Positions 58,347 to 63,782 of a stretch of 64,000 nucleotides of DNA are shown piece by piece. Below the pieces are notes generated by a model, which was given only the letters and a program-made list of their open reading frames with translations, was not told the origin of the DNA and ran no database searches. The translations under genes were made by a program, and so were the position numbers. Origin of the DNA: Methanosphaera stadtmanae (GTDB lineage Archaea > Methanobacteriota > Methanobacteria > Methanobacteriales > Methanobacteriaceae); contig SUTQ01000006.1 in the NCBI GenBank assembly GCA_015062805.1, positions 40,631-104,630 of the forward strand, written 5' to 3'. Position 1 is the stretch's first letter; every line of letters begins with the position of its first letter.

Positions 58347-60494
58347 ATGACGTATTTTGATTTATCTTCATCTCAGAAAATGTTATTATTTTCAGAGATT
58401 AATAATCCCCATAATGACTCCTTTTATCTATAATTTAGAAAAGATTATAACTTAAATGATTTCGAAAATGTAAAACAATCAATAAAATTCATTTCTGAAA
58501 AATATTTGAATCTTAAAATTAAATATGATGAAAATGGAGAGTATAGACAACATTATGACGATTTTAAAGTTAATGTTGAATCATTTGAAATATCAAATGA
58601 TAATCTTGATAAATTTCTTGTTGAATATTTAGACAATCCTTTTGATAATATTTTTGATTCACCATTATACAAATGGGCAGTATTAAAAACAGAAACTGCT
58701 ACAGTACTTATCGGTGTCGTCCAGCATATACTCTTAGATGGTACTTCATTATTCTCAATTATACCCCAAGAATTAGAAAAATATATGGAATCAATAAAGA
58801 ATAATGAAAAGTATATACCAATAAATTATTCTTATGAAAATTATGTTAATGAGGAATTGAAGTATTTAAATTCTAATCAATCAGTTGAAGACAAACAATA
58901 CTGGTTAAATTCCCTAGAAGATTATTCTCAAGATTGGTATTCTTTTAATAATTCTGAATTAGGATTTTATGAAGTACTCTTAGAACAAATTCCCAAATTT
59001 GAATATTCCCCATTCGTAACTGCATTATCACTTAACTTTTTATATTTTGCAAAATCCAAACAGGATAATAAATCCTTCAAGGATATTGTAATGAATACTT
59101 CTGTTCATGGAAGATACTTTGGACAGGATAATGCTTTAGGAATGTTTGTAAATACAATTCCATTAAGACTTAAATATAATGAAGAGTTGACATTCGATGA
59201 ATTATTATCCTATTCCAAATCTGTTCTAAAAGAAGGATTAACACATGCAAAATTACAGTTCAGTGAATATACTACTGATTTAAGAAATCAAAAGATAGAT
59301 CCCGATTGTATTTCAATGATTTCAATAGTATCCAATTCCACAGATTGTAATTCAAAGTTCCTAACACTACAAAAGGACATTAAATTCCCATTACACTTCA
59401 GAATAAACAAAAATTATTCCGATAAAAGAGGATTGCAATCAATATTCATCGAATACGATAAATCCTGTTTTAGTTATAATGAAATTGAACAAATTGCAAA
59501 TGGTCTTAAATATTTAGTAAAACAGGTTATTGAAGATTCATCTAAAAAATGTAAGGATTATAACGTGGAAGCAGTTGACTTTTTCAAGGCAGAAAACTAC
59601 TATAATAATCTCATAAATTCATTTGATAATCCAACTGCCATATCACCTGATGTAAATGGAGATGAAGAGATATTCAAATCAATATCCAAAGTTCTGGATG
59701 TGGATAAATTGAATGATTTGTCAAAACAGTACAATTTAACTAAAGATAAATTGGTTCTGGCTACTTTCTTATTTAATTTAACCAAGTTTTCATTTTCAAA
59801 AGATATTCTGATTACATACAATAAACAGGCTTGTGGATATCATTTTAATACTGATTTATCAGTTAAAGAATATTTAGATGATTTTAAACAATGTTTTGAA
59901 GAATTTGATAATTATCCGTTATTAAATAATAAAAAATTAAATTTTAACAGCGAAATATTATTTTTCAATCATGATTATGATAAAAAAGATTATAAATTCA
60001 TATTTAATTTTGAAAGTTCAAAAAGGAATATCAGTTATGATAATTCTTTTTACTCTGAAGAACTAATTAAAACTTTCCTCGATTCCATGGATGTTTTGTT
60101 AGAAAGATTCAAATCAAAGCAAGCGTTATTAAGAAATATTTCAATAAGAAAAGAACTTGAATATGATGAAGACTTTAAGATAGAACTAGCAAATGAGGGC
60201 ATAATCAACAAAATATTTGAAAATATTGCATCCAAAAATCCTGATAAAACAATACTGATTGCTGAGGATGGAGAATTTACTTATGATGAGCTTAACAAAA
60301 AAGCAAATAAAATTGCTAATGCTTTAATCAAAAGAGGAGTAGGCATTGAAGATAGAATAATGTTCATGATGAGAAGAAATAGTGATTTGATTGCTACTGT
60401 ATTAGGTATTGTTAAAGCTGGAGCAGCATTTATTCCTATAGATCCAAATTATCCGATAAATAGGTTAATAAATCAAATACTAATTAATACCTGA
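58347..60494 (+). pseudogene. NRPS relic: condensation domain with stop codon, truncated adenylation domain
   Basis: ATG 58347 with GGTGTAA upstream gives MTYFDLSSSQKMLLFSEINN, then TAA at 58431-58433, after which the same frame continues to 60494. The condensation domain reads VQHILLDGTSLF (the HHxxxDG motif with its first His as Gln) and GMFVNTIPLRL. The adenylation domain starts near 60200 (FTYDELNKKANKIANALIKRG) and stops after KAGAAFIPIDPNYP, before its core motifs, with no carrier domain. One stop and a lost end make it non-functional. NRPS genes are rare in archaea but known in rumen methanogens. Confidence 0.85.
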
Positions 60495-60703
60495 TTTACT
60501 CTTTTTTTTAAAATAGTCCCTGTGACTATCTCTTTTTTTTTTAAACAATTTTAGAAAAAAATAGAAAATAACTATTTTAGGTATATATTTCGTTATCTTC
60601 ACATTTAACTATCTAAAAGATTTTTACCCTATTCAATTTTTAGAATATATTTTATAATTGATTAAATAAAACAACATATAGCGAATTATAAGTGGATATA
60701 TGA
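60495..60703. other. A+T-rich gap after the NRPS relic
   Basis: About 210 bp, T-rich near 60497-60545, with a CGTTATCTTCACATTTAAC stretch near 60592. No gene. Confidence 0.35.
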
Positions 60704-63281: not shown

Positions 63282-63782
63282 TTTATATTAATTAAATCGA
63301 AACTAAAAATAAATTCAAATGTTAAATAGAATTGATTTAATAATCAATTCTTTTTTTATTTTTCGATTTAAAACACTTATTTTTATCTAAATACCTATTT
63401 TTTTAATTAATAACTATACACTTCGAAAACATAAATTAAATATTATTAGATAATTTTATTTAGAATTAATATTTATGTTAATTCTACTTATCAAATATAA
63501 TTTTTTAGTGATAAATAATATAATATAAGTCTAAACTTTTCGTTATCTTTTTTTAACAACTCTTATTTATTTTCGTCTAATTTAATTCGTTATCTTAAGT
63601 CTTTAACGAACAAATAATACTTTAGTATTTCTAAATAATTATAACTATTGATTTTATGAATATGGAAGAATTTTAAAAGGTTGGGATTATTATTTTAAAC
63701 AGTTTTTTTGTTGATGTTTTAAAGTATTAGTTGTTTAGTATTTTCTTTCTAAATAAAAAAATAGTTATGGATGTGAGTAATA
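63282..63782. other. A+T-rich gap after the adhesin gene
   Basis: About 500 bp. The terminator lies at 63328-63357. CGTTATCTT occurs near 63541 and 63590. No gene on either strand. Confidence 0.4.
63328..63357 (+). terminator. Hairpin terminator of the adhesin gene
   Basis: AGAATTGATT at 63328-63337 pairs perfectly with 63342-63351 around TAAT, followed by a run of T through 63357. Confidence 0.8.

Follow-up and report, generated by a model that had tools for sequence, protein, structure and literature searches.

A truncated and probably recently inactivated nonribosomal peptide synthetase gene in Methanosphaera stadtmanae

Introduction

The first archaeal nonribosomal peptide synthetases (NRPSs) were reported from Methanobrevibacter ruminantium M1, in which mru_0068 opens with a module containing a condensation (C) domain, ends in a release/reductase domain and lies next to a MATE gene (PMC2812497). 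A total of 687 NRPS clusters have been published from 125 archaeal rumen genomes, and closely related methanogens occur with and without such clusters (PMC8241843). Rumen Methanobrevibacter commonly carry NRPSs, and the statement in a preliminary description of the locus studied here that these genes are few in archaea is outdated, given the published clusters and the intact orthologues that we identified in 20 Methanobrevibacter genomes.

These orthologues, which include genes from M. thaueri and M. millerae MAGs, share the start and the C-C*-A domain order of the gene described below, where C* is a partial second condensation domain and A an adenylation domain. Our scan of named genomes returned 23 relatives, of which 20, all from Methanobrevibacter, begin at the same start and stay open for 2,587–2,653 codons. 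The ancestral gene plan corresponds to approximately 2,605 amino acids arranged as C-C*-A-T-C-A-T-reductase; in the one intact orthologue scanned in full we identified C, A, thiolation (T), C, A and T domains followed by a terminal NAD-binding reductase. The intact copies examined are followed by a MATE exporter gene, and several have anti-sigma or PPTase genes upstream. As judged from its published description (PMC2812497), mru_0068 follows the same two-module plan; its orthology is a lead only.

Of the named profiles, that of AusA, the aureusimine/phevalin NRPS (NF047350), gave the best match to the intact orthologue, covering residues 552–2599 (E = 1e-297). The score of 991 bits falls below the cut-off of 2500 for this NCBIfam profile, and the archaeal orthologue is therefore not filed as AusA, from which it also differs in having a complete additional C domain at its N-terminal end. 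Here we analyse a truncated copy of this gene in a window of 64,000 nucleotides (C20:40631-104630) from a draft genome of M. stadtmanae (2.1 Mb in 50 contigs, 99.9% complete).

Results

The relic and its lesions

The relic consists of 715 codons colinear with the 5′ end of the NRPS gene, plus a final TGA at 60492-60494, and its translation opens MTYFDLSSSQKMLLFSEINN. Compared with 13 representative intact copies, it is colinear from the start codon, C* included, with 72–77% amino acid identity over 709 codons, which is far beyond chance; identity at codon positions 1, 2 and 3 is roughly 0.80, 0.90 and 0.54, respectively. This colinearity marks the ancestral gene as a two-module NRPS of the Methanobrevibacter type. 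A single in-frame TAA, at codon 29, interrupts the 715 codons, and the first in-frame ATG downstream of it, at 58785, already lies within the C domain. Homology to the intact gene stops near position 60482 in all frames, so that the relic represents a truncation and not just a frameshift. Whereas the Methanobrevibacter copies are intact and adjoined by the MATE gene where examined, the relic lacks the last ~73% of the gene; it is flanked by genes for an adhesin-like protein and a DUF308-like membrane protein, and neither a MATE exporter nor the anti-sigma or PPTase genes were found among the neighbouring genes checked. The coordinates of all features are collected in Table 1.

Two related loci show other states of this gene family. 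The Methanosphaera copy in genome G005 has an uninterrupted frame of 2,603 codons that reaches the contig end and shows 64–65% identity. In Methanobrevibacter sp. MAG79 (L085:10001-18071), a related NRPS is divided between two overlapping frames of 588 and 2107 amino acids, reflecting a frameshift, a sequencing error or an early lesion.

Table 1. Features of the NRPS relic and of the neighbouring 37-bp repeats (window positions unless a contig or locus is named)
Feature	Position	Strand	Evidence
NRPS relic, 5′ end of ancestral ~2,605-codon gene	58347..60494	+	Frame, Pfam, orthologue comparison
In-frame TAA, codon 29; sense codon in intact orthologues	58431..58433	+	Frame and alignment
Condensation (C) domain, residues ~1-410	58347..59576	+	PF00668 in two stretches; family profile matches linear gramicidin synthase C domains
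Condensation active-site motif, QHILLDG here vs canonical HHxxxDG; identical in 12 aligned intact orthologues	58722..58742	+	
Partial second condensation domain (C*, C-lobe only), residues ~411-600	59577..60146	+	tblastn; low-confidence model
Adenylation domain start, Pfam AMP-binding 1-86 of 384; nucleotide-/substrate-binding core absent	60216..60470	+	Pfam
End of homology (~60482), then three unrelated codons and TGA	60483..60494	+	Homology comparison
37-bp repeat, intact copy	63575-63611		
37-bp repeat, decayed copy	about 63529-63560		
37-bp repeat, more copies	C20:104216, 105226, 106609; L055, L131-L139		

Domain content

The relic translation was run against Pfam with the TAA read as X. 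This analysis identified a Condensation domain (PF00668, E = 1e-27), which the TAA interrupts near its start, and an AMP-binding domain (E = 1.4e-19) confined to the beginning of the profile; whole-genome domain searches recovered both (C20:98989-100194 and C20:100846-101103). In tblastn comparisons, residues ~411-600 aligned with the C-terminal half of C domains from the intact NRPSs of this genome, and we therefore read this region as C* and not as a linker. The order of secondary-structure elements in a low-confidence model of the C-C* region also agrees with this assignment, although the mean pLDDT of 61.7 was insufficient for fold searching. Pfam detected neither a thiolation (carrier) domain nor a release domain (TE or R) in the relic. 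Of the parts of a functional NRPS, the relic thus contains a condensation domain and lacks a complete adenylation domain, a thiolation domain and a release domain, and because of this it cannot make a peptide. The preliminary description had recognised the relic of an archaeal NRPS, with one stop in its C domain and an A domain that ends early, and the colinear orthologues bear this out.

Other NRPS genes in the genome

When an intact 2,605-residue orthologue was searched against the whole genome, residues 3-713 matched the window at 77% identity and only paralogues at 34–50% were found elsewhere. The genome contained no close counterpart of the ~1,890 residues that the relic lacks, the release end of the gene included, and a search for the 3′ part as a complete gene at another site, the finding that would have spoken against a relic, returned none. 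Contig C48 retains a pair of intact NRPSs, 3169 and 4195 amino acids long. The former is an intact three-module enzyme at a locus separate from the relic; across residues 601-2604 of the intact orthologue the two are 50% identical.

A second NRPS remnant (C42:49356-50642, L169) corresponds to the carrier/reductase 3′ end of another NRPS; it carries its own in-frame TAA and is followed by an intact MATE gene. We considered this remnant as the missing 3′ half of the relic and rejected it, as it derives from a different NRPS with 41% identity to the intact orthologue. On visual inspection it is similar to the end of the 4195-residue enzyme. Its presence makes NRPS decay plausible in this genome.

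Selection on the relic branch

A codon branch model gave an omega of 0.055 for the relic branch against 0.073 for the background, and nine other tips ranged from 0.04 to 0.12. Neutrality on the relic branch was rejected, omega = 1 costing 84.6 log units. The gene shows disabling lesions, namely the in-frame TAA and the 3′ truncation, and no relaxed constraint. The relic carries changes at 19 of 357 otherwise invariant sites, the most of all copies (others 2–14), and is also the longest branch. Strong past purifying selection with no relaxation indicates that nearly all of the divergence accumulated under selection and that the break came late, unless the piece is still used. A low omega is expected of a pseudogene whose break is recent, and we infer both that the break is recent and that its recency is the reason for the low value. 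The G+C content of the relic (0.261) is near that of the window (0.248), whereas the intact copies have 0.34–0.36; the gene has adopted the composition of its surroundings and is thus probably a long-term resident.

Origin and possible movement of the gene

In two trees the relic groups with five Methanobrevibacter copies (support 96/98 or 95/94), apart from the other Methanosphaera copy. This placement suggests that the gene may have been transferred from Methanobrevibacter, although a Methanosphaera-only clade was not rejected by the AU test (p = 0.27).

A 134-base match to the relic gene at 92% identity was identified in another Methanosphaera genome, G009 (L055, G009:C118, 9912-10072). The longest matches between the two genomes in 9.4 kb of other chromosomal genes reach only 70–73% identity, a contrast which suggests, for this short stretch, that the gene or a piece of it moved within the genus. 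Counted by eye, the ~124-base overlap holds four nonsynonymous and four synonymous changes, too few to use. G009 also contains a frameshifted C* remnant (G009:C8, L054:1-467), approximately 49% identical to the relic; an intact NRPS was not found in this genome.

Arrays of 37-bp repeats

A 37-bp CRISPR-like element, GTCTAATTTAATTCGTTATCTTCAGTCTTTAACGAAC (and variants), begins exactly where the G009 match ends. Its core was detected in 9 of 20 Methanosphaera genomes and in none of 119 other Methanobacteriaceae, and a reversed-pattern control gave zero. The copies lie ~0.4–9 kb apart with ordinary whole genes between them, and in each array a conserved leader-like stretch typically follows one of the copies; in three genomes a Cas2-Cas1 pair adjoins this stretch. 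Repeat pairs from different genomes often have only one flank in common. In the present genome, Cas1 is encoded on C42 next to a conventional CRISPR, which has about 91 repeats at ~66-bp spacing.

These arrays look like gene capture at a CRISPR-type repeat. An integron reading is not favoured: the leader-adjacent genes are Cas1/Cas2, and a paper on archaeal integrons makes no mention of Methanosphaera (PMC9668308). In the open-access literature searched, only partly aimed at this question, we found no description of repeat arrays spaced by whole genes, which is weak evidence of novelty.

Discussion

Our analysis indicates that the locus is very probably what remains of a two-module NRPS gene after truncation and recent inactivation. 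The 3′ ~1,890 codons would have been deleted or replaced in this lineage and a stop would have arisen at codon 29; the order of the two lesions is one we infer. Domain order and general knowledge of such enzymes suggest that the ancestral protein loaded a pair of amino acids, linked them to each other and let the product go in a reductive step. This product would probably have been a dipeptide aldehyde that could close into a pyrazinone ring, and the first C domain may have added an N-acyl group.

An array of genes bounded by repeats starts 3 kb downstream and could have made the lesion, which would supply a cause for the truncation and not an alternative to it. The 92%-identical G009 piece ends exactly at a 37-bp repeat at the leader-distal end of an array, the position that the relic occupies here. 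The 3′ end of the relic itself contains no significant repeat, since the best match, at 60583-60609, is no better than shuffled sequence and was rejected as a decayed copy; we therefore consider this cause unlikely. We likewise regard it as unlikely that a Methanosphaera gene-cassette array, built of 37-bp repeats with a leader and a solitary cas2-cas1 pair, moves and cuts pieces of this NRPS gene. In that case the relic would be a leader-distal remnant at the array edge, and the G009 fragment a stretch of this NRPS gene that was either captured or cut short.

An improbable reading is that expression of the shortened C-C* piece continues and that it serves as a free-standing condensation or acyltransferase protein, in which case the TAA at 58431 would be a sequencing error or translation would begin downstream of it. 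The omega of this piece is not raised, and a low value would be equally expected if it were still used, which counts against our main reading. A precedent may exist in the M. stadtmanae SIG23 MAG (G019, L053:3453-5435), where an intact 660-residue C-C* frame has no A domain and no NRPS was found elsewhere in the 87%-complete genome; this frame is a possible repurposed condensation protein. Its product is only 46% identical, however, and the relic retains 86 A-domain positions that would not be expected in a designed C-C* protein. The TAA at codon 29 also speaks against this reading, as the first in-frame ATG beyond it lies inside the C domain. MAG79 was rejected as a further parallel, as its NRPS goes on in the next frame. 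An assembly artefact, in which an intact gene exists but is hidden in the draft contig by a false join near 60482 and a wrong base at 58431, could be favoured by the T-runs 20–60 bp past the junction and the 50-contig assembly, but is very improbable given that no contig of the nearly complete genome carries a close 3′ part, that the contig extends 5.6 kb more and that another NRPS remnant, likewise interrupted by a TAA, lies in the same genome.

Inactivation remains our reading of the locus, and with one stop in 715 codons and no rise in omega it agrees with the earlier view of a freshly broken gene. The proposal that peptide synthesis was both gained and lost in this lineage holds in part: one gene was lost, whereas the capacity was not, because the two intact NRPSs remain. 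As to gain, the grouping with Methanobrevibacter (95/94) suggests transfer, and the AU test does not reject a Methanosphaera-only clade.

The relic leaves knowledge of NRPS function unchanged; it is an ordinary, though tidy, instance of gene decay and a clear new example of a known phenomenon, and its larger value may be as a pointer to the adjacent repeat-bounded arrays, which are more novel than the relic. It presents an archaeal NRPS caught soon after inactivation, with intact relatives at hand for comparison. The already-reported differences between related methanogens in the presence of NRPS genes include outright gene breakage, and the family is now placed in Methanosphaera as well as in Methanobrevibacter.
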